From a virus: a stretch of 64,000 nt of DNA. Positions 6,001-57,053 of the stretch are shown in pieces. The translations under genes and the position numbers were made by a program. The stretch spans positions 27,845 to 91,844 of the IMG/VR virus record IMGVR_UViG_3300031977_002862; one strand, written 5' to 3'. The notes under the pieces are model-generated. The model worked only from the letters and a program-made list of their open reading frames with translations. It was not told the origin of the DNA and did not search any database. Numbering within the stretch: the first letter of the stretch is position 1; each line of letters opens with the position of its first letter.

Positions 6001-9000
6001 TGGAGCATCTATAAAATATATAGAGTCATCGTGCTCTGTAGCTACTACACTTACTAGACAATTTGTTTGATAAGTAAGGGATTGAATTCTGAAATACTTT
6101 CCGCTGTCCCAACCAAATCGAGGATATTTTACACGAATTAGTTCACCAGGACTCAATGCTAAACCAACAGGTCGAACTGTAAAAGAAATCTGGCGAGAAA
6201 ATCTTGAACGATTGAGGATCTGCTCAACAGCAAGTCGAGCATTGTAGTAGTTTGTAATTCCTTCGAGCTTGAAAGATCCTGAACGAACAACTCCTCGATC
6301 TTGCTTCAAATAATCTGAGTTAAAGAAAGATACGTTTCGACTGTTAAAATTATTCTGAGGGTCGATAATGCTTGCAGATAAAGAATTATACGCTTTCGAA
6401 AGTCCGTCGTCTTTAATCGAAAGAGAACCAATAATATCTTCTTGCTCAATGACTCGAACACTTGAGCCTACAGAAATCCACTCAATATCAAAATCATCTG
6501 CAGACGAAAGACCCAAATCTAATCGAAGACCCGTAATATAGCTGTCTTCCCAATCTGTTCCACCAGCAGTTAGATTTGACATATCCCACGAAGCAATCAC
6601 CCACTCATTTAAAACTGTGGGGTCAGAAATATCTTTTTGAAAAGAAGCCGATTCACCGTGAGAGTCGGTAGTGTAATAAGCAGCACCATCCCAACCAGTC
6701 CCTCCAGTTCTACGTATTCTTGCACGAATAATTAAGTTTTCAGAACCTTTGAAAGAAAGATTTGATTTTCTAAATACAGGATCGGAGCCACTTGAGTCAA
6801 GAGTTATATACTCTTCTTCTTGTGTAATTGAAGCCTGGCCATTTACTGTCCAACCCTCTGAAGAGTTCTGGAAATTCCAGAAAAGTTCTCCGTCAGCATC
6901 TCTCTTTGTCTCTACTGAAAGAGTGAACTTGCCGTCCTCAAATGCAAGTATTCCATTAAAGTGCTCAAGAATAACGCCAATAACATTAAAGACGGGCTGA
7001 GATGTATCAATTGATAAATTTCCCTGATGGCGAGTAACCCAACGCTGGTCGGGAGAGTCCCACCCAAGATACTTCCAATACTGTATAAAGTCGGAATCGT
7101 AGAGAGAATAATCTAAAACATTACCAGAGCCAGAGGCTACAGAAACACTTGTGCTGTCTCCGCCAACTTGAGTTAAGGTAAATGAAGAAATCTCAACAGC
7201 ATTTGTACTTATAGTTGTTTGCAAACCACTGGTTGTATTAAATCTATAAAGACTTGATCCAGCCTCCCAAATAATATCGTCTTGCAAGCGAGTACGGACT
7301 TTATTGAATTGATTTGTAAGTTTCCCAATACAGTCTGTAAAAGTAACTTTGAAACGATCTGGAGAACCACTCAATGCATCTTCAATAGTTTTAATAGTTC
7401 CTTGCCACTTAAAACCACCAGTAGGCTCATACTTAAACTTATCCCCTACTGCAAGAGTATGTCCGACACTGTCTACTTGTATTTCGACTGTAATATCTGA
7501 TCGAGTATCGCAAGTTCGGGCAGCTTGTAAAAAGCTATTAATATTTAACTTATCATCAGAAAGACCCGCCCCATAACGCTTACTCTTCATATAATCTAAA
7601 AGAATAAGTCCAAAGTTTGTAGTGGGCCGAACGTCTCTTCCTTCTTCGTTTCCGTATATTAGTACTTCATCTCCTGCTTCTGGAACTTCTCCATCGGCTA
7701 GATCAGTAGTAAGAGTTAGAATGCGAGTGGCTCCGTCGTAGTCTTTAATTACTTTAAGAGTTTCTATTATATTGCCATTAAAATCGGTTCTTCTGATTAA
7801 AACAGCTTTACCATTATAAGCATCATCAACAGAACTCGGGCTTCCAGTTGTAGAAAGTTTAATCTGATTCTTTATTGTTATATATGTAGTAGTAGAAGCA
7901 TTTCCTGTTACAGTACTTATATTATTTGTAGGAGTATCATCAAGGACAGTGTTAGTTTGATCTACAGTTACAGTAGTTGAAGAGGTTACCGGGTTTTCTT
8001 GATATGTTGGACTCTTAGGGTTTGAACCATCAAAACCATTAGCAAGAGGAATTGTTCTTTCTGTATTTACCGAGGCTCTAGAACTTCCAGTAGAGCTTTG
8101 AGCATCTCTTACGTTGCTTGTACTTGTTGTAGCATTTATGTCAGCAGTACCACTAGAATTTATTGCAGAAATTTCATCTTGAAGTTTTGTTTCAATAGTA
8201 AAGGCTGCATTCCCTTCTGTAAAATCATATGTTGCCATGGTCCAAGTATTTGAACCATCATCCATGTAGAATTTTTTAGCCTGCTGTAGAGAGATTTCTT
8301 GAGCCGCTGTTAAATCCCAACGAAATCTATAATTTGTATTTCCCTTCCCGTCCTGGTAAAACCACTTATCTATAATTTGAACATTTGAAGCAAGTGCAGT
8401 GTCATCAGAAGACTTTTTGATAGTTACTGTGTCGCCGAGAGAAAAATTAGTGTGGTTTTCACCACTTCCTACATGACCATAACTTCCGTCGTAGTTATAA
8501 GATTCTACAAGCTTTCCTTTTACTACGTAGTCTATATCTGGTACTGTAGTCTGGTCAGGTGTAATGGTGTGCTTAGAAACAGTATAAGCAGTATCAAGAA
8601 GTTTATGGTTTGCCCCCCAGTAATTAGTAGCTGGAGCAGATCCAAAATAATCATTCTGAAGTTTAAATTTTGTCCCGTTTGCAACACTAGATAAACGAGA
8701 AGATGCTTGTTGATCTTCTAAACCTGATTTAAACTCTATAACGGTGTCAGTAGGACTTGTAAAATTAATTCCGTAATCATGTACAAGACCTTTTTGTCCT
8801 ACAGGAACTCCGGAACTATATATTCCATTTACCAATCCATTGTAAACTTCATTTCTTTGTACGTAAACTCCAGAAGGAGCATTGAACACCCAAGAAACAA
8901 GCTCTTGTGCCGCTTGAGCATTTACTTCGGCCTCTGCTTCTATAGCTTCATAGTCCTCTACAGAAAGAGTTTGACTGCCGCTGTAAACCACTACGGAAGG

Positions 9001-33034: not shown

Positions 33035-33643
33035 ATGCTCAAGGAACAACAAGCAAGACTCAATCGGATTTTAGACTCTCGGGGGCATGGCGGGATTGCC
33101 GTTGTGCTTGAAGGTCGCGACACTGCCGGAAAATCTAGCACGATTCGCGAGGTTACGCATTATCTGAATCCGGCAAAATACAGCGTGCATCTCTCGCGCA
33201 AGCCTAGCAAATCCACCATGAAACACTGGCTCGGGTATTGGTCAAAACGAATGCCCGCAACGAATCAAATCGTATTTTACGATCGAAGCTGGTATTCTCG
33301 CGCAATGGTTCAACGCATGAACGGCTGGTGCTCAGAAACTCAATATGAGAATTTTCTGGCAAAGCATAAATCATGGGAAGAAAAGCAGGGCTTGCGTTTT
33401 ATTAAATTCTGGCTTTCGATTTCAGAAGAGGAACAACGCCGCCGAATTGAACGCCGCAAAGCTTCGCCTCTCACCTATTGGAAATTTTCCGAGAATGACG
33501 AAAATGCGCTCTCGTATTATGACCGCATGACGCTCTTAAAGGAGCGCGTCATTGATTCCGATTGGCACGTGATCGACTACAACGACAAGCGCCAGGGCAT
33601 CCTTGACCTCACCACCCGCCTCTGTGACCTGCTAGAATCCTAG
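33035..33643 (+). CDS. ppk2: Polyphosphate kinase 2 (PPK2) family enzyme
   Basis: The 202-aa protein has the PPK2 core: Walker A in VVLEGRDTAGKSSTI (residues about 24-38), the Trp/Tyr lid region HWLGYWSKRMP and Walker B/loop FYDRSWYSRAMV (about 81-92), then the Arg-rich helix RRIERR. PPK2 enzymes transfer phosphate from polyphosphate to nucleoside mono- or diphosphates, or the reverse. In a phage this could recharge NDPs to NTPs from host polyphosphate stores. Slightly shorter than bacterial enzymes (230-300 aa), it retains the catalytic motifs. A hairpin terminator overlaps its stop codon. Confidence 0.88.
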   Translation: MLKEQQARLNRILDSRGHGGIAVVLEGRDTAGKSSTIREVTHYLNPAKYSVHLSRKPSKSTMKHWLGYWSKRMPATNQIVFYDRSWYSRAMVQRMNGWCSETQYENFLAKHKSWEEKQGLRFIKFWLSISEEEQRRRIERRKASPLTYWKFSENDENALSYYDRMTLLKERVIDSDWHVIDYNDKRQGILDLTTRLCDLLES

Positions 33644-43590: not shown

Positions 43591-43627
43591 TCTTTTTCTT
43601 CTTCTTTTTCATCTTGTGCATTGCCAT
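43562..43627 (-). CDS. 21-aa poly-lysine micro-ORF
   Basis: A TAATG overlap with the preceding gene and a GAAGGAAAC ribosome site open a frame rich in Lys (MAMHKMKKKKKKNGKKKKSR plus Y). Thirteen of 21 residues are basic. It may be translated as a coupling leader or as a short DNA-binding peptide. Chance ORF cannot be excluded. Confidence 0.35.
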   Translation of the reverse strand: MAMHKMKKKKKKNGKKKKSRY

Positions 43628-43935
43628 TATCGTTTCCTTCTTAAGTCCGTATCATGTTTACGAGACCCTCGGATATACGAATTTACACGAGCATGAGCCC
43701 ATCGACTCATAGTCATGCCTGGTCGTGATCCGCTTGATAAAAATGCACCCTGACCACGGCGATAAACCTTTGTCAGAGTTGAGAGAGAAATCCCACTTTT
43801 CTTCGCTTTTGCTGCAAGAGATTTTCTTACTGCTGGGGAAAGTGGCTTGGCTTTACGCTTCGGTGCAGCCTTTCGTCTGGAGGGGCGCTTTCGCGCTGGA
43901 GATTTACGTGTTGTTCTACGTTTTCTTACAGCCAT
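43627..43935 (-). CDS. Lys/Arg-rich protein with C-terminal globular part
   Basis: The 102-aa product has a histone-tail-like N-terminal half (many RKR, KRK and SPAV repeats) and a helical C-terminal domain (LSTLTKVYRRGQGAFLSSGS, then RWAHARVNSYIRG) recognisable in many marine phages. First of four basic genes downstream of the tmRNA. Possibly compacts or protects phage DNA. Confidence 0.7.
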   Translation of the reverse strand: MAVRKRRTTRKSPARKRPSRRKAAPKRKAKPLSPAVRKSLAAKAKKSGISLSTLTKVYRRGQGAFLSSGSRPGMTMSRWAHARVNSYIRGSRKHDTDLRRKR

Positions 43936-43954
43936 GAATTACTCCATGAAACCG

Positions 43955-44228
43955 TGCCTTCTAATAAGGCGTATCCATTTCTGTTGCCAAGCTGGATACC
44001 CACTCCGCAATTCACTACTTAGGCAGCAATTGCAAGGTCATAAACTTCATCGTTTGCGTTTATGTTTAATTTGGCTCTATCAGTACCTATTCACACAATG
44101 TCGAAACTGAATTCACCCCCATCAAAAGCACACTAGGTCTTATTTGAAACTATATAAAGTTGCTGCCCAATCTGCTTATGGTGGAGGTGGAGGGACTTGC
44201 ACCCTCGTCCATCATGTCTTAATGAACT
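43955..44228 (-). ncRNA. ssrA: Circularly permuted (two-piece) tmRNA
   Basis: Order on the minus strand is inverted relative to a standard tmRNA. The T-arm GAGGG-TGCAAGT-CCCTC (44190-44206), the 3' acceptor strand CACCTCC and A-CCA (44179-44189) come first. A ~58-nt intervening segment follows. Then come the 5' acceptor strand GGGGGTG (44114-44120), TTCGA and the tag frame. The two acceptor strands pair 7 of 7 (one G-U). Helix P2 pairs CATTGTGT (44093-44100) with ACATGATG (44210-44217), 8 pairs with two wobbles. This rescues stalled ribosomes and tags products. T-loop G at the second position is unusual. Outer ends are approximate. Confidence 0.88.
44019..44057 (-). other. tmRNA tag-peptide reading frame
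   Basis: The frame reads ANDEVYDLAIAA then TAA, preceded by ATAAAC, the usual context before the GCA-AAC-GA resume site. The ending AIAA resembles ClpXP-recognised degron tails (LAA, VAA). Twelve codons plus stop is a typical tag length. Confidence 0.85.
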
Positions 44229-44234
44229 CAATCA

Positions 44235-44402
44235 TCAAGCCTGTTGTTTATCTTTTGTCTCTGTCAAGTATGTAACTTGGCCACAAGTATATTGATGTGG
44301 TTCTTCAACACACTTGCCGCATCCAGAGCCGACGAGGTGATAATAATAATCTGTCTCTTCTAACATACTTTCTGTAATTGCGTTACAGATACAGATATAC
44401 AC
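44235..44402 (-). CDS. Bfd-like [2Fe-2S] ferredoxin
   Basis: A 55-aa product beginning with GTG after AAGGAGACGATGA: MYICICNAITESMLEE, then GSGCGKCVEE. The C-x-C near the N-terminus (C4, C6) and C-x-x-C (C28, C31) match the bacterioferritin-associated ferredoxin pattern, though the spacing between pairs is about ten residues shorter than in E. coli Bfd. Bfd delivers electrons to release iron from bacterioferritin. Its stop is a few bases before the tmRNA acceptor half. It may work with the nearby IscU. Confidence 0.65.
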   Translation of the reverse strand: MYICICNAITESMLEETDYYYHLVGSGCGKCVEEPHQYTCGQVTYLTETKDKQQA

Positions 44403-44559
44403 TCATCGTCTCCTTAAAAATAGGGCGGGGGCGCGATACGCTTTAAGGCCAAACCTATGTGTGCTAAATTAGCCACCCCCTAGTGAGTTGTGCTGCCCCT
44501 CGCGCGGTTGCCTATAGGGGTCTTATGCACCTGAAGCTCACTTGGACCTTCAAAAGAAA
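44403..44559 (-). other. Structured intergenic leader upstream of the ferredoxin gene
   Basis: 157 bp with no ORF. Stems visible on the transcribed strand: AGTGAG/CTCACT enclosing CCCCT/AGGGG, then a GCTAATTTAGC hairpin and a GC-rich run. Possible cis-regulatory RNA; no known riboswitch class recognised. Confidence 0.35.
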
Positions 44560-44712
44560 CTACTTCTCGTTGATGTAGTAGTTTCGACACTCTCGAACGC
44601 TTTCTGCAATGCCTTGTTCGACCTCAGCTTCGCAACGCTCGTTGAGCTTTTTGTTGCTGCTCGGTATGATTAACAGAGCAACAACGATCAATGCAATGGT
44701 TACACCATCCAT
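44560..44712 (-). CDS. 50-aa membrane-anchored protein
   Basis: The ATG follows AGGAGAGGATC. MDGVTIALIVVALLIIPSSN is a single N-terminal membrane helix; the rest is a charged helix with two Cys (ERCEAEVEQ, RECRNYY). Unknown; the longer upstream reading frame lies within a structured region and has no ribosome site. Confidence 0.6.
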   Translation of the reverse strand: MDGVTIALIVVALLIIPSSNKKLNERCEAEVEQGIAESVRECRNYYINEK

Positions 44713-45096
44713 GATCCTCTCCTTATGTTGGTAGTAAGCGGGCTTCGGATGGGCTAATACTTTCACCGAAATCTTTACTGCCTTATCTACTACTATCCGT
44801 AGTCCCTGGCTTCCCACTAATAAACACACTCGCTAGAATATGCTTATTAGTGGGCTAGACTTTTTGCGCTGAGGAAGCCTAGCGAAACCTCAAAATGCAC
44901 ATAGGAATGATACCAATTTAGCGTGCTACGTGATTTATCTGCTTGCTCAGGACGCCTCCCAAGGGGATTTAGTTGAATCCTCACCGGTCTGTTTTTTCTA
45001 AAGTGAAAAATGGTCCGATAAAACACTGCGGGCTTTTATTAGGTTCCGAGAGTATATCTCTTTTTTCGCAGACCTACCACCTTAATCCAGAAGTGG
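44713..45096 (-). other. Long structured gene-free leader (about 380 nt)
   Basis: Between a strong promoter and the first firm gene there is no credible ORF but many stems on the transcribed strand. They are a GGTCTGCG...CGCAG...GGACC fold, GGATT/AATCC, GAGG/CCTC around 44870, and a perfect 11-bp helix CCCACTAATAA/TTATTAGTGGG (44814-44856). It could be an unrecognised structured RNA (riboswitch-like, intron-derived or stand-alone). Confidence 0.45.
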
Positions 45097-45425: not shown

Positions 45426-45672
45426 CAGTCCCAAACCCTGCCGATGCTAAAGCATCTCCGTCCCAGTCAAAGAGGTACTCTTCGTCGTCGTACATCGCTT
45501 TCTCTGTTTGAATCTCTTCAACAATAGCTTTCTCGACGAGTTCAAGAGCATAATCCATGCTTATATTAAAGCGACTTGACACCTCTTCCGCAATTTCGTA
45601 GGGTTCATGTTCCCACATCGCTAATACCATGTGAGACACTTCTTGGTATAGTTCTTCTCCGATACTACCCAT
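45409..45672 (-). CDS. Hypothetical acidic protein
   Basis: The ATG overlapping the iscU stop gives 87 aa (MGSIGEELYQEVSHMVLAMW, helix NISMDYALELVEKAIVEEI, acidic tail). Helical, soluble. Similar helical proteins are annotated as host-nuclease inhibitors or unknown; no evidence for either here. Confidence 0.65.
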   Translation of the reverse strand: MGSIGEELYQEVSHMVLAMWEHEPYEIAEEVSSRFNISMDYALELVEKAIVEEIQTEKAMYDDEEYLFDWDGDALASAGFGTDEDYF

Positions 45673-46048
45673 TCTTTTTCTCCGTATAATCCTTGATTGC
45701 AGCTTTGATTGCATCTTCAGCAAGAACACTGCAATGTATCTTTACAGGCGGTAGTGCAAGCTCTTCTGCAATCTCAGAGTTCTTAATACTCCCAGCATCC
45801 TCAAGAGTTCTGCCCTTTACCCATTCAGTAAGTAAACTAGAAGATGCGATTGCACTTCCACATCCGTAGGTCTTAAAACGAGCATCCTCGATAATACCTT
45901 CGTCGTTTACTTTTATCTGTAACTGCATTACGTCTCCGCAAGCAGGAGCACCGACCATGCCAGTGCCTACATCTTCATCCTCTCTATCAAATTTTCCCAC
46001 ATTTCGGGGGTTCTGATAGTGGTCCATTACTTGTTCAGAATATGCCAT
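45665..46048 (-). CDS. iscU: IscU-like Fe-S cluster scaffold
   Basis: The 127-aa protein matches IscU over its whole length: YSEQVMDHYQNPRNVG at the N-terminus, the three ligand cysteines in GAPACGDVM (C37, with Asp39), KTYGCGSAIASSS (C63) and KIHCSVLAE (C106), plus the LPPVK chaperone-recognition motif. IscU assembles [2Fe-2S] clusters from IscS sulfur and donated iron and passes them to apoproteins. Here it may keep host Fe-S enzymes or phage Fe-S proteins active. Partner iscS/iscA genes are not in the window. Confidence 0.93.
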   Translation of the reverse strand: MAYSEQVMDHYQNPRNVGKFDREDEDVGTGMVGAPACGDVMQLQIKVNDEGIIEDARFKTYGCGSAIASSSLLTEWVKGRTLEDAGSIKNSEIAEELALPPVKIHCSVLAEDAIKAAIKDYTEKKNG

Positions 46049-51451: not shown

Positions 51452-52087
51452 ATGACAGTAAAAATACCTTTAAAATATCGAAACAAGCCGGCTATTCTTT
51501 TCGCTACAGGACCGACAATGCTAGAAGCCGTTCCTATAGTAGAAGAGTATAAGGATGATTACATTATCTTTGGGTGTAATGATTCTTATAAAGTAATTCC
51601 TTGGTTAGACGAACACTACGCTTGCGATGATCGTTGGTGGAGATTTAATGGGCCTGATTTTCGTAAAAGGTGTCCTAATCTGTCTTCTTGGACTCAATCG
51701 AAAGAAGGGGCAAAAAGTTGGAACATTCAATTAGTTCAAGGATACCATAGAGACCTTATGAGTATAGATTCTTCCTATATTCACTTCGGGTCTAATTCTG
51801 GGTTTCAAATGCTAAATATAGCTTTTTTAATGGGCTGTTCCAAGTTTATTTTGGTTGGCTATGATATGCAGCATATAAATAAAAAAACGCATTTTTTTGG
51901 TGACCATCCAGGAGGCATGTCCAACAGCAGTCCCTATGGAAAATTTATAAATTATTATTCTAAAATACAGCCTGAGATTAGAGAATTGATTGTTAATTGT
52001 AGTCCTAATTCTGCTTTAACGGTTTTTAGAAAAAATACATTGAGAGAAGAGCTTGAGAATAATAAGTCTTTCAAAACAAATTCTTAA
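51452..52087 (+). CDS. Glycosyltransferase-like protein (DUF115/GT29-like)
   Basis: 211 aa. Motifs: AILFATGPTMLEAVPIV (nucleotide-binding-like loop), FGCNDSYKVIPWLDEHYACD, HFGSNSGFQMLNIAFLMGCS and ILVGYDMQ...GDHPGGMSN, which resemble the DUF115/sialyltransferase-like family. First gene of the AT-rich glycan island, and no promoter of its own is seen. It may add a sugar to phage or host surface glycans. Confidence 0.65.
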   Translation: MTVKIPLKYRNKPAILFATGPTMLEAVPIVEEYKDDYIIFGCNDSYKVIPWLDEHYACDDRWWRFNGPDFRKRCPNLSSWTQSKEGAKSWNIQLVQGYHRDLMSIDSSYIHFGSNSGFQMLNIAFLMGCSKFILVGYDMQHINKKTHFFGDHPGGMSNSSPYGKFINYYSKIQPEIRELIVNCSPNSALTVFRKNTLREELENNKSFKTNS

Positions 52088-52715
52088 TAAAGAGCTCGAT
52101 CAAGTAGTGGCCTCGAAGGTATATAGAAGCTTAAATAATCCTGTAACAAATTTAATTTCTGGGTTGTATCTTCGAAAAAAAGCGGGAAGAGTTTTTCTAG
52201 GGTTAAAAGAGCATTCAGAAGAAAAAATAGAAGAATTCTTTAGTTTAATAAAAGATCAAAAGTATTTACTGTCTTTACCGGAGAACTCTCTTGGAAGACA
52301 TATATACAACCATGGAGGCTATGAAACTTTCAAAGAGTTTTATACAAATAAAGAAGTGTATTTCTATACTGGAAAAAATAAAAAACTTCTTTTTTATATT
52401 AATAATTTTATGAATCATGTAAAGATTTCACACGATTATTGGCATATAATGTTCGGCTACGGAAGAAGTTATGTTGATGAAGGGTGTATACAGGCCATAA
52501 CCTTTAGTGCTTTAAAATCTTTTGGGCCTCTATATATTTGTTTACTAATATGTATATCAGATATGCTCGAAACCAAAAATTTAGTTGGAACTAAAAGAAT
52601 ATATAAAGCATATAAAAGGGCTCAGAAAACTAAAAGGGAATTCTTTTTTAAAAAGTTCGATAACTTATTGGAAGAAGATATTAATGAAATAAGGAAAAGG
52701 TACGGCATAGTATGA
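52053..52715 (+). CDS. Coq4-like protein
   Basis: TTG-start frame of 220 aa overlapping the previous gene by 35 nt. The central segment SHDYWHIMFGYGRSYVDEGC has the H-D-x-x-H-x11-E pattern of Coq4 (ubiquinone biosynthesis, metal-binding), followed by IQAITFSALKSFG like the family helix. The flanking parts are basic and helical. Coq4 homologues are not usual in phages. It could act on a lipid-like or quinone-like substrate in the envelope; an exact role is unknown. Start codon uncertain. Confidence 0.6.
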   Translation: MRIISLSKQILNKELDQVVASKVYRSLNNPVTNLISGLYLRKKAGRVFLGLKEHSEEKIEEFFSLIKDQKYLLSLPENSLGRHIYNHGGYETFKEFYTNKEVYFYTGKNKKLLFYINNFMNHVKISHDYWHIMFGYGRSYVDEGCIQAITFSALKSFGPLYICLLICISDMLETKNLVGTKRIYKAYKRAQKTKREFFFKKFDNLLEEDINEIRKRYGIV

Positions 52716-53350
52716 TAAAAATATTTGTAGGTACTTCTGCAAATGGAGAAGATGATATTGCGGAAAAAACTCTTAAATATTCTTTAGAAAAGCATTCTTC
52801 AGAAGAATTAGAAATTGTTTTTATGCGAAACAGAAAAGACGGCTTTATGGGTCTTTTTGACTCTTCTGGCTGGGCTACGCCTTTTACTAATCTTCGTTGG
52901 GTAATTCCAGAGTATTGCAATTTTTCTGGAAGAGCTATTTATATGGATGTAGATCAATTAAACTTACGAGATATTTCCGAACTCTACAATATAGATTTAC
53001 AAGATAAACCCTTTGCTTCTAGGGATAATCGTCTTTGTGTGATGGTAATGGACTGCGAAAAAATGCAGACGGAGTTGAAATCTGCACAACATATAAAACA
53101 AACTCCTACATACGGTAGAGAAATTTATTGGAACATAGTTAAAAAAAGTAAACATTTTGATCCTAGATGGAATTGTTTAGATGGAGAAGATAGAGAGATA
53201 AATGATATCTGGCATCTTCATTTCACCACTATGCCTACACAGCCTTGGAAACCTTCTTGGTATAGAGGAGCTCACAGAGAACACCCAAGACAGGATTTAG
53301 TTAATTTATGGAAGCAGTATAGTTTGGAGGCTATAAATGGCACTAATTAG
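52712..53350 (+). CDS. Glycosyltransferase, GT8-like
   Basis: 212 aa with N-terminal MIKIFVGTSANGEDDIAEKT and the DxD site in AIYMDVDQLNL. Conserved RDNRLCVMVMDCEKMQ and a HLHF strand fit galactosyl/glucosyltransferases of family 8. It overlaps both neighbours by 4 and 14 nt. Probable substrates are nucleotide sugars. Confidence 0.78.
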   Translation: MIKIFVGTSANGEDDIAEKTLKYSLEKHSSEELEIVFMRNRKDGFMGLFDSSGWATPFTNLRWVIPEYCNFSGRAIYMDVDQLNLRDISELYNIDLQDKPFASRDNRLCVMVMDCEKMQTELKSAQHIKQTPTYGREIYWNIVKKSKHFDPRWNCLDGEDREINDIWHLHFTTMPTQPWKPSWYRGAHREHPRQDLVNLWKQYSLEAINGTN

Positions 53351-53897
53351 TGAAAAATACTCTAACTTATTGAAAGAATACCATCAAGAAAGAGAAAGTT
53401 TTGGAGAGTCAAAGAATCCTGAGTCCTATTATTTATTATACTACATAAAGAAAATGTATTTAAATTCTTTTTTAGATTATGGGTGTGGGAAAGGCGGTTT
53501 AATTAAAGAATTAAAAGATTTATATCCTACTATGGAAGTAGAAGGCTATGATCCTGGAACGGTAGAATTTGAAAAACACCCAGAAAATCATTATGATTTT
53601 GTAAGTAGTATAGATGTACTAGAACACATAGAGCCAGAACATATAGACGAAGTGCTACTAGATATAAAAAATCTTTCTTTAAACTATATATACCTTCTAA
53701 TATGTCACTCACCAGCAAAAAAGAAATTACCAGATGGAAGAAATGCTCATATACTGCAAAAACCTTTGGATTGGTGGTTAAAGAAGTTAGAATTAACTAT
53801 GCCAGACTTCGGATTTGCGGAGGTTACACAAATCGTTTCAGATAGGGTAGATCTGCCACGTAAGATAGATAGTAGAATTTTACTAAAAAGAAAATGA
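53337..53897 (+). CDS. SAM-dependent methyltransferase
   Basis: 186 aa with the class I motif FLDYGCGKGGLIKELKD and the post-I acidic region, SSIDVLEHIEPEHIDEVL, typical of small-molecule O-methyltransferases. Overlaps the preceding gene by 14 nt. May methylate a sugar transferred by its neighbours. Confidence 0.8.
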   Translation: MALISEKYSNLLKEYHQERESFGESKNPESYYLLYYIKKMYLNSFLDYGCGKGGLIKELKDLYPTMEVEGYDPGTVEFEKHPENHYDFVSSIDVLEHIEPEHIDEVLLDIKNLSLNYIYLLICHSPAKKKLPDGRNAHILQKPLDWWLKKLELTMPDFGFAEVTQIVSDRVDLPRKIDSRILLKRK

Positions 53898-54499
53898 ATA
53901 TAGCTATTATTGGACACGGCCCTAGTATGCTTTTAGAAAAAAGGGCAAGTTTTATAGATTCTTTTGATTTTGTTGTCAGACAAAAGAAAAGAGGAATAGA
54001 ACTAATGCAAGAGCACCCTGAATTTTTCGGAAACAAAACAAATGCAGTGTGCGGGTCTGTAGGCCAGTATAGAGCAATAAACTACCCTAATACTGAAAAG
54101 TGGGTATTCATAGATTCACGATATGAGAATGCAAATGTCTCTAATCTTGTAGGTGCCCGGGTAGATAAAGATCTTTGCAACAAGTGGAACCAAAAATTTA
54201 GAGAGAAAAGAACAGATTATTCTCCTCCAGACGAAAGGATCGTGTCCTCTAAAAGTTCTGATTCTTTTGGCCATAGGCATTTATCTTCAGGTTTTCACAC
54301 AATACTTTATGCGTGTAAACTGTTAAGTCCGAAAAGTATAACACTGTTTGGTTTTGACAGCCTACAAAACGGAGATTTTACTTGGTCATTAACAAGGGGC
54401 GAACAGTGGAAGCAGTACCCAGATCATAGATGGGACATAGAGTTTCTTATGATAGAAGAAGTAAAAAAACATTTCGGAATTAATATGGAGTTTAAATAA
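53894..54499 (+). CDS. Sialyltransferase-like glycosyltransferase (GT29-like)
   Basis: 201 aa with MNIAIIGHGPSMLLEK at the start and LSSGFHTILYACKLLSPKSI then LFGFDSLQNG, the motif set seen in phage sialyltransferase-like proteins. ATGA overlaps on both ends. A second member with the 51452 protein. Confidence 0.7.
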   Translation: MNIAIIGHGPSMLLEKRASFIDSFDFVVRQKKRGIELMQEHPEFFGNKTNAVCGSVGQYRAINYPNTEKWVFIDSRYENANVSNLVGARVDKDLCNKWNQKFREKRTDYSPPDERIVSSKSSDSFGHRHLSSGFHTILYACKLLSPKSITLFGFDSLQNGDFTWSLTRGEQWKQYPDHRWDIEFLMIEEVKKHFGINMEFK

Positions 54500-55047
54500 T
54501 GAATAGATATACAGAGCTTACTACTTTGGTAAGAAATGAGAAACCAAAACATATTCTAGAGATAGGTACCTGGAACGGGAACAGGGCTATAGCTTTATGC
54601 AATATCAATAATTCTAGCTATACTGGATTTGATTTATTTGAGGAAGCTACGAAAGAAACTGATGAAGTAGAAAAAAATGTTAAAAAACATAACTCAAGAG
54701 ATTCAGTGCTGCGAAAAATAAGAGGTAATGGAATTGTTTGTGAATTAATACAAGGTAATACAAATATAACCTTACCCGAATACGTAAAAATTAATTCACC
54801 TAAGTTTGATTTTGCTTTTATAGATGGAGGGCACTCTGTAGAGACTATTGCCAATGACTGGAAGTATGTTAAAGAATTAATGCTACCCAATAGTTTAGTA
54901 GTTTTTGACGATTATTATGAAAATTGCTCAGATTTACATATTTGGGGAGCTAATAAGGTACTTGAAGGTTTGGACTATTCACTAGGAGAGTGTAGAGATC
55001 CTGTGGTTACAGGAGAATTTGTAAGGCTCGCTACAGTAAGGGTATGA
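54499..55047 (+). CDS. SAM-dependent methyltransferase
   Basis: 182 aa with HILEIGTWNGNRAIALCNIN (motif I), FDLFEEATKE (post I) and FAFIDGGHSVETIANDW (motif with conserved Asp), like Methyltransf_24 sugar methylases. Overlaps neighbours by 1 and 4 nt. Confidence 0.8.
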   Translation: MNRYTELTTLVRNEKPKHILEIGTWNGNRAIALCNINNSSYTGFDLFEEATKETDEVEKNVKKHNSRDSVLRKIRGNGIVCELIQGNTNITLPEYVKINSPKFDFAFIDGGHSVETIANDWKYVKELMLPNSLVVFDDYYENCSDLHIWGANKVLEGLDYSLGECRDPVVTGEFVRLATVRV

Positions 55048-55700
55048 GAGTTTTTATCGGGTATGACTCAAGGGAAGATATAGCATATAGAGTTGCTAAA
55101 GCTTCTATCTTAAAATATAACTCTTCTTTAGAGGTTCTGCCTATTATAAGAAAAGATTTAATAGAAGAAGGTATTTACTCTGTGGAAGACTCTTTAGGTT
55201 CTACAGAGTTCACAATTACAAGATTTCTAACTCCCTACTTGAGTAATTATACTGGAATATCTGTCTTTATGGATTGTGACGTATTAGTACAAACAGATTT
55301 GGAAGACATTTTAGTAGAGTGTGACTTATCATTACCAGTAAATTGTGTAAAACATGAGTACACACCTAAAACGGACTTAAAGATGGACAATAGAACACAG
55401 TATGTTTATCCTAGAAAAAATTGGTCTTCTGTTATGGTTTTTAATTGCGAGCATAAATTAATTAGGAAAAACCTTACTGTTGAGTCTGTGAATTCTTCTA
55501 CTCCAAAATATTTACATAGAATGGGATGGGCTGAAGAAAATATAGGAGAGCTACACCATACGTGGAACTATTTAGTGGGATATTATAGTGATATTGAAAA
55601 ACCTAATATACTTCACTACACTGATGGGGGACCTTGGTTTGAGAACTATAAAAACTGTGAATTTTCGGAAAACTGGAATAGTGAGTTAAAAAATGTATAA
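55044..55700 (+). CDS. Glycosyltransferase, GT8-like
   Basis: 218 aa: MRVFIGYDSREDIAYRVAKA (nucleotide-sugar loop), SVFMDCDVLVQTDL (DxD site), and HHTWNYLVGYY near the C-terminus. The second GT8-like protein of the island. Likely a sugar transferase. Confidence 0.8.
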   Translation: MRVFIGYDSREDIAYRVAKASILKYNSSLEVLPIIRKDLIEEGIYSVEDSLGSTEFTITRFLTPYLSNYTGISVFMDCDVLVQTDLEDILVECDLSLPVNCVKHEYTPKTDLKMDNRTQYVYPRKNWSSVMVFNCEHKLIRKNLTVESVNSSTPKYLHRMGWAEENIGELHHTWNYLVGYYSDIEKPNILHYTDGGPWFENYKNCEFSENWNSELKNV

Positions 55701-56415
55701 TGTATATACCACTTTTGCCCCAAAAGATTATCTTCTCTACGGAAAAAACTGTATAGAGACTTTTATAGAATATTGGCCAGAAGATATTAAACTGTACGTT
55801 TACTATGAAGGAAAGCCTGAATTAGAGAATGATAGGGTAGTTTGGTTGGATTTTAATACGGAATGTTCTGACCAATTAGTGTTTGCTGAATATGCAAAAA
55901 ACTATCCACAAGATAATTTTTATAAAGCGGCTACTAGATTCTCCTATAAAGCTTATACTATAATCAATCACCTAGAAAAAAGACTAAATAGATACAGCAT
56001 TTGGCTAGATGGCGATTGCATAGCAACTAAAAAAATACCTTTAGATTGGTTAAGTAAAGTTAAACGTGATAATTGTTGTGTTTCTACATTATTACGAAAA
56101 ACAAGAGCTGCAGAATCTGGATTTATCTTAGTAGATAATGAACATGAAGATTTTAATTTATTTTTACAAAAATACTCAGAATTTTATAGGGAGTATAAAC
56201 TTTTCAAGCTTCCTGAATGGCATGATGGGTATATACTAAGCCACGTAATAGGTGAGTTTAAGATAAAAACTTTTAACCTTACCCCTCCTAACAATACTAG
56301 ACAAGCAGAATACCATCCTTTTGTTCGGGGAATATTAGGAAAATATTTGGACCATTTAAAAGGCCCAAGAAAAAATATCGGTTTTTCTAAAGAAAGACAG
56401 GATGTTTGGAATTGA
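55693..56415 (+). CDS. Glycosyltransferase-like protein
   Basis: 240 aa with a DxD-type site (SIWLDGDCIATKK) after a Rossmann-like N-terminal segment. The remainder, FKLPEWHDGYILSHVI, resembles Lafora/DUF-type capsular transferases. ATG overlaps preceding stop by 8 nt. Likely uses a nucleotide sugar. Confidence 0.7.
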   Translation: MYNVYTTFAPKDYLLYGKNCIETFIEYWPEDIKLYVYYEGKPELENDRVVWLDFNTECSDQLVFAEYAKNYPQDNFYKAATRFSYKAYTIINHLEKRLNRYSIWLDGDCIATKKIPLDWLSKVKRDNCCVSTLLRKTRAAESGFILVDNEHEDFNLFLQKYSEFYREYKLFKLPEWHDGYILSHVIGEFKIKTFNLTPPNNTRQAEYHPFVRGILGKYLDHLKGPRKNIGFSKERQDVWN

Positions 56416-57053
56416 AAAATATAAAAGGTTGGTTTTTTCCGGATAACGAGAAACATTTTATAAAATTTGTGGACTTTTTTCCGGAAACTAGCTACCAACA
56501 AAATATCTTTTCTCACGCCTTATTTAAAACTAAAAACAAATCTTGTTTTGTTGATATTGGAGCTAATTTAGGGTTACACACAGTTAGAGCAGCTTCTTGC
56601 TTTGATTATGTTCATTCTTTTGAGCCTGCGAGAGTTAATTACGAAGCTTTATCCAAAAATTCCCAAAATTTTACAAATATAAAAACCTATAATGTAGGCT
56701 TGGGAGGGAAGGAGTCCCTAGGTTATTTAAAAATACCAAAAAATTCTAATAATCTGGGGAGTTTTTCTTTTAAAGATTTTAATAACATGAAAGAACACGA
56801 ACTCTCTATAGAGGAAGTAACTATTAAATCTTTAGATTCTTATAAATTGAGTCCAGATTTAATTAAAATAGACGCACAGGGGTTCGAGGTGCAAATACTG
56901 CAAGGGTCGATAGATACTATACGCAGACATTCTCCAGTTATACTGATTGAAATGCTGAAGTATAACTCAAAGAAGATCGAAAAATTACTTACCGAATATT
57001 CGTATGTACTAGATACAAAAATTAAAAAAGATGGAGTATGGATTAAAAAATGA
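56406..57053 (+). CDS. FkbM-family methyltransferase
   Basis: 215 aa with CFVDIGANLGLHTVRAASCF (motif I), SFEPARVNYEAL (post I) and LIKIDAQGFEVQILQG, the FkbM signature. The start is TTG, overlapping the previous gene by 10 nt. Would methylate a sugar hydroxyl. Confidence 0.85.
   Translation: MELKNIKGWFFPDNEKHFIKFVDFFPETSYQQNIFSHALFKTKNKSCFVDIGANLGLHTVRAASCFDYVHSFEPARVNYEALSKNSQNFTNIKTYNVGLGGKESLGYLKIPKNSNNLGSFSFKDFNNMKEHELSIEEVTIKSLDSYKLSPDLIKIDAQGFEVQILQGSIDTIRRHSPVILIEMLKYNSKKIEKLLTEYSYVLDTKIKKDGVWIKK

Follow-up and report, generated by a model that had tools for sequence, protein, structure and literature searches.

A conserved, phage-borne permuted tmRNA gene with its own tag frame

Does a phage that appears to encode a permuted tmRNA carry a ribosome-rescue RNA of its own, or rather a decoy, a functionless passenger or a chance resemblance? 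This question is raised by a locus on the minus strand of a 64,000-nucleotide stretch of viral DNA (hereafter the window), which is part of a 91,844-base IMG/VR virus record. The original prediction, made from the letters alone, saw here a permuted tmRNA (ssrA) gene with a private tag and regarded such a gene as unusual in a phage. The latter view does not hold: 53 of 133 unique phage tmRNA structures are two-piece, 50 of these being marine or aquatic (PMC9004378), and two pattern scans of IMG/VR yielded at least about 160 permuted calls. The tmRNA database contains 79 phage sequences (PMC11915505). Two-piece tmRNAs have been published for phages Melnitz (OM43) and Mosig (Pelagibacter), and maintenance of the hijacked machinery or recycling of host proteins have been proposed as roles of phage tmRNAs (PMC9004378). 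The gene in the window is therefore a further member of an established class, here borne by a T5-like phage.

ARAGORN returned a permuted tmRNA with the tag ANDEVYDLAIAA on the minus strand (43928-44271), its sole call of that kind, and made no call in 60 dinucleotide-shuffled copies of the window. Comparison with Rfam models gave 94.9 bits for RF04321 (tmRNA_permuted; cut-off 47, E 4e-17) and 60.3 bits for RF01849 (alpha_tmRNA; cut-off 50), both above cut-off, and 64.2 bits for RF01850 (beta_tmRNA), which falls short of that family's cut-off (84). The half containing the T-arm and CCA (3') comes first in the gene, ahead of the 5' half, and pairs with it through the acceptor stem and P2; the alanine identity pair G3-U70 and an encoded CCA end are present, and the tag frame has the resume context CATAAAC-GCA and the stop codon TAA. 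The two pieces form a cofold that is stabler than those of shuffles (z -3.2). Thus, covariance models and ARAGORN, which had been proposed as checks, both recover the predicted gene, and the reading as a phage-borne permuted tmRNA with a tag of its own holds down to the 7-bp acceptor stem and the 8-bp P2 in the ARAGORN pairing, the 58-nt gap, the CCA, the tag frame ANDEVYDLAIAA-stop and the T-loop TGCAAGT. The right gene had been located, with its coordinates now adjusted to 44241-44179 and 44120-43971, the stretches conserved in relatives. Its parts are listed here; L242, L252 and L357 are contigs of a second lineage.

44179..44241, minus strand: acceptor (tRNA-like 3') piece, 63 nt, ending in the encoded CCA (ARAGORN, RF04321; ~95% conserved in L242/L252/L357 versus diverged flanks)
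44210..44217, minus strand: P2 strand of the acceptor piece (ACATGATG), partner 44093-44100 (ARAGORN bracket structure; pairs 1-3 covary in phage tmRNAs)
44190..44206, minus strand: T-arm with stem GAGGG/CCCTC and loop TGCAAGT, G at position 55 (as in 53 of 54 distinct phage permuted tmRNAs)
44183..44189, minus strand: 3' acceptor strand CACCTCC, partner 44114-44120, holding U70 of G3-U70
44121..44178, minus strand: intervening sequence, 58 nt, no ORF, predicted to be cut out as the RNA matures (its place in L242/L252/L357 taken by 13 nt of unrelated sequence)
43971..44120, minus strand: coding (mRNA-like, 5') piece, ~150 nt (ARAGORN, RF04321; the conserved block stops here in the comparison)
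44114..44120, minus strand: 5' acceptor strand GGGGGTG (ARAGORN pairing)
44093..44100, minus strand: P2 strand of the coding piece (CATTGTGT) (ARAGORN pairing)
44019..44057, minus strand: tag frame ANDEVYDLAIAA-stop, with CATAAAC ahead of the resume codon GCA (ARAGORN; synonymous-only differences in L242/L252/L357)
43971..44001, minus strand: hairpin/pseudoknot element GGGTATCC-AGCTTGGCAACAGAAAT-GGATAC after the tag (AACAGAA loop element conserved in phage permuted tmRNAs and in the alpha_tmRNA consensus)

The 58-nt spacer folds as a hairpin that draws both its ends together. On the negative side, P2 contains two G-U pairs, and its inner pairs are poorly kept across phages.

To what extent this anatomy is maintained can be read from relatives. 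Besides the record of the window, only four IMG/VR contigs have this tag. L124/L356, a separate contig from another metagenome, equals the window over 5.7 kb at 99.9%, while L242, L252 and L357 are ~70-76% identical to the window where alignable and keep the tmRNA gene in the same neighbourhood. The mature pieces are ~95% conserved between the two lineages, differing at 3 of 63 positions in the acceptor piece and at 7 of 150 in the coding piece as counted by hand on the alignment, and base pairing is retained where bases changed. Within the tag, the differences are confined to two synonymous third positions (GAC/GAT and ATT/ATA). In contrast, the spacer measures 58 nt in the lineage of the window, whereas the other lineage has 13 nt of unrelated sequence; the two also disagree in what precedes the acceptor piece and in which gene follows the coding piece. 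The edges of conservation agree with the expected ends of two mature RNAs; conserved pieces flanked and separated by changed sequence are the pattern of a selected RNA with a discarded spacer. Anatomy, conservation and a synonymous-only change of the tag between two lineages are direct observations. In L296, a close relative within the lineage of the window, LAM replaces LAI in the tag, and the ARAGORN match ends at the tag; the tag is therefore not perfectly fixed. The comparative evidence for selection on the tag peptide itself makes it testable why phages bring their own tag.

The T-loop had been suspected to be a handicap, as it deviates from the usual form. This concern is not borne out, since G at position 55 is the rule: it was found in 53 of 54 distinct phage permuted tmRNAs with a readable T-loop, collected with a search pattern blind to the T-loop, which makes TGCAAGT an ordinary loop for this group. 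In a set of 119 distinct permuted tmRNAs from phages, covariation is seen in the T-stem and in the first P2 pairs (1-3), whereas the corresponding counts in the acceptor stem do not serve as evidence because they are partly fixed by the search patterns.

As to the phage, terminase, portal and capsid place it near T5-like phages, albeit at 35-51% identity only; the nearest relatives are T5-like phages of Vibrio and enterobacteria (terminase ~51%, portal ~40% identity), and the record also has a gene with NAD-dependent ligase adenylation/OB domains. ARAGORN called no tRNA genes and no recognisable SmpB was found in the whole 91.8-kb record, which may be a fragment, so that their absence is no proof for the whole phage. 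On this count the phage RNA needs partners, presumably the SmpB, alanyl-tRNA synthetase and proteases of its host. The tmRNA gene is flanked by a small ORF (44560-44829) and a gene for a basic DUF5824 protein (43627-43935). The latter, located downstream, was considered as an SmpB substitute and rejected, as no tmRNA was called near its other relatives L125-L203 and another gene takes its place in L242/L252/L357. A search for relatives via the 239-aa neighbour protein found none. Directly upstream of the tmRNA no strong promoter is present; the best match (11/12) is ~950 nt away in that direction, and promoter-like sites are as numerous as expected by chance.

From these features we infer how the RNA would be transcribed, processed, charged and used for tagging, and how the phage would benefit. 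The transcript would run from the acceptor half through the spacer to the coding half. By analogy with known two-piece tmRNAs, cleavage by host tRNA-processing nucleases behind the encoded CCA and ahead of GGGGG would leave two RNAs joined by the acceptor stem and P2. Host AlaRS would charge the molecule via G3-U70, host SmpB and EF-Tu would deliver it to stalled ribosomes, and the stalled peptide would gain (A)ANDEVYDLAIAA and then be passed to host proteases. The likely benefit is that ribosomes stay in use while the infection proceeds, a time at which damage to mRNA and the shut-off of the host create many non-stop complexes. With the charged alanine counted in, the tag is AANDEVYDLAIAA. 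The E. coli tag is AANDENYALAA, of which AANDENY is the part read by SspB, and apart from one residue the start of the phage tag is the same. This likeness suggests a tag on which SspB and ClpXP could act, given a suitable host.

Weighing the locus as a whole, we consider it very probable that it is an intact, selected, phage-borne permuted ssrA gene serving ribosome rescue with host partners. A different outcome would result if the RNA acted as a decoy or competitor, binding SmpB and AlaRS or pairing with host pieces and thereby weakening or redirecting host trans-translation, for instance through a differently degraded tag. There is a precedent in the TLD-only tmRNA recorded for mycobacteriophage DS6A, a similar molecule being a strong inhibitor of tmRNA, perhaps by titrating SmpB (PMC4131195, PMC11915505), and a two-piece design would permit exchange of pieces with the host. 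However, a pure decoy could dispense with the coding half, the resume context, the stop codon and the tag amino acids, all of which are kept under selection, and the hydrophobic -AA end of the tag is the usual one. We therefore regard this explanation as unlikely.

That the gene is a passenger, i.e. a decaying copy of a host ssrA without function in infection, is less probable still. Integration commonly targets tmRNA genes, and phages can pick them up (PMC9004378); beside relatives of the neighbouring DUF5824 gene a tmRNA was called only in L124; yet the mature parts are far better conserved than their flanks, the tag changes are synonymous and pairing was kept where bases changed, which is at odds with decay. 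Chance resemblance or an assembly artefact can practically be dismissed, given the RF04321 E-value, the silence of all 60 shuffled windows and the agreement with an independent contig (L124).

With ribosome rescue as the preferred reading, where does the gene come from? Acquisition from a host with a two-piece tmRNA is possible. The exact T-arm GGGTGCAANTCCCNCCACCTCCACCA is present in at least 120 virus stretches, at least 70 of which gave permuted ARAGORN calls, and in 28 bacterial matches among 84,980 species, belonging to MAGs labelled Elusimicrobiota, Omnitrophota, Clostridia or Berkelbacteria or lacking a name. ARAGORN called a tmRNA in 24 of the 28, all one-piece and none permuted, for which reason an assignment of the host from these matches was rejected. 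Among the matches listed, permuted tmRNAs with the exact T-arm thus occur in viruses only, a lead toward a virus-only lineage but no proof, because the T-arm pattern is narrow; some IMG/VR contigs may moreover be misassigned bacterial DNA. The deeper position of the tmRNA of the window in the tree is weakly supported (0.49).

Like the gene in the window, those of Melnitz and Mosig are permuted ssrA genes carried by marine phages (PMC9004378), and the Mosig gene, annotated SsrA, falls into the same loosely supported part of the tree. Unlike the T5-like phage of the window, both are 141-kb myophages of the T4-like type for which a glutamine riboswitch has been reported, whereas no Rfam riboswitch, including the glutamine type of Melnitz, was detected near the tmRNA studied here. 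The tags differ as well (GEDNFALAA in Mosig versus ANDEVYDLAIAA), and most phage tags collected start with ANDN rather than ANDEVY. With alpha_tmRNA (RF01849) the gene shares gene order, acceptor stem and the GGCAACAGAAA element after the tag, but its T-loop TGCAAGT departs from the model consensus GGCGGUA and its coding piece is short. It resembles beta_tmRNA (RF01850) in being permuted and in reaching a similar score, although one below that family's cut-off. The tmRNAs of mycobacteriophage Bxz1 and relatives and of Bacillus phage G are also phage-encoded, but one-piece and not permuted (PMC4131195). The present case adds a T5-like lineage, with no tRNA genes in its record, to the phages carrying their own ribosome-rescue RNA. 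L252 encodes two different permuted tmRNAs on the minus strand (579-877 and 6532-6902), with the tags ANDEVYDLAIAA (alpha-like) and ANDDIYSLAA (beta-like), the second reaching 101.8 bits and passing the RF01850 cut-off of 84. Parts of 44311-44787, just upstream of the tmRNA in the window, adjoin this second tmRNA in L252.

In related phages, outside the window, the spacer can contain complete genes. In L447 (G003:C1:132800-134600, 157.6-kb contig; also L358:1783-2271), the spacer of 489 nt is taken up by an ORF for an HNH endonuclease of 144 aa, which has a Shine-Dalgarno sequence and whose cyanophage relatives are annotated as homing endonucleases. To the eye, both tmRNA halves of L447 look intact, and a tag frame followed by the usual element is present; its best RF04321 match covers only part of the model at 29.5 bits, presumably owing to the long spacer, and ARAGORN made no call even with a shortened spacer. 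The start of a related HNH gene is seen at the contig end of L215, and the spacer of L289 begins similarly but lacks HNH. A conserved small protein is encoded in the spacers of L442, L359-L365 and L367 (131-132 nt where measured), and likewise in L440 (186 nt) and L441 (169 nt). It comprises 32-43 aa or more, ends like HRLHTTKYEDLCK and is in most cases preceded by a Shine-Dalgarno sequence; the tmRNAs of L442, L440 and L441 score 79.4, 104 and 92.8 bits against RF04321, and the family ending HRLHTTKYEDLCK stands alone in other phages. Seemingly orphan acceptor halves in L239, L273, L311, L314 and L316 were rejected as such, for the coding half follows further down beyond a long spacer; L264 is a one-piece tmRNA. 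ORFs nearly fill these spacers in L316 (209 nt, 61 aa), L239/L273/L314 (111 nt, 32 aa, hydrophobic) and L311 (159 nt, 38 aa); they have no PHROG relatives and may be due to chance.

We give an even chance to the reading that the excised spacer of phage permuted tmRNA genes is a landing site for cargo genes, the window presenting an empty example. A gene placed there would leave the tmRNA unbroken and require no intron, and the free replacement of the spacer in the lineages compared above (58 versus 13 nt) was counted toward this reading. The permuted form may thus tolerate, even attract, genes in its discarded spacer. No literature report of cargo genes in tmRNA spacers was found in a search that left most subscription journals outside. 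If true, homing endonucleases and small phage proteins would find a haven in a gene for ribosome rescue, and tmRNA genes with cargo spacers would escape programs that set a limit on the spacer.

Several further observations concern the surroundings of the gene. Upstream of the tmRNA, the non-coding segment 44420-44600 (minus strand), for which Rfam has no match, contains runs rich in G and in C (GGGGGTGGC ... GCGCCCCCGCCC) with the potential to pair. The window also encodes a phage polyphosphate kinase 2 (PPK2; 33035-33643, plus strand; Pfam 145 bits) and a NifU/IscU-like Fe-S scaffold protein (45665-46048, minus strand; Pfam NifU_N 184 bits). Finally, a cluster at 51452-57053 (plus strand) comprises small glycosyltransferase genes, FkbM and other methyltransferase genes and MptE-like genes, preceded by an Hsp20 gene and followed by a redoxin gene.
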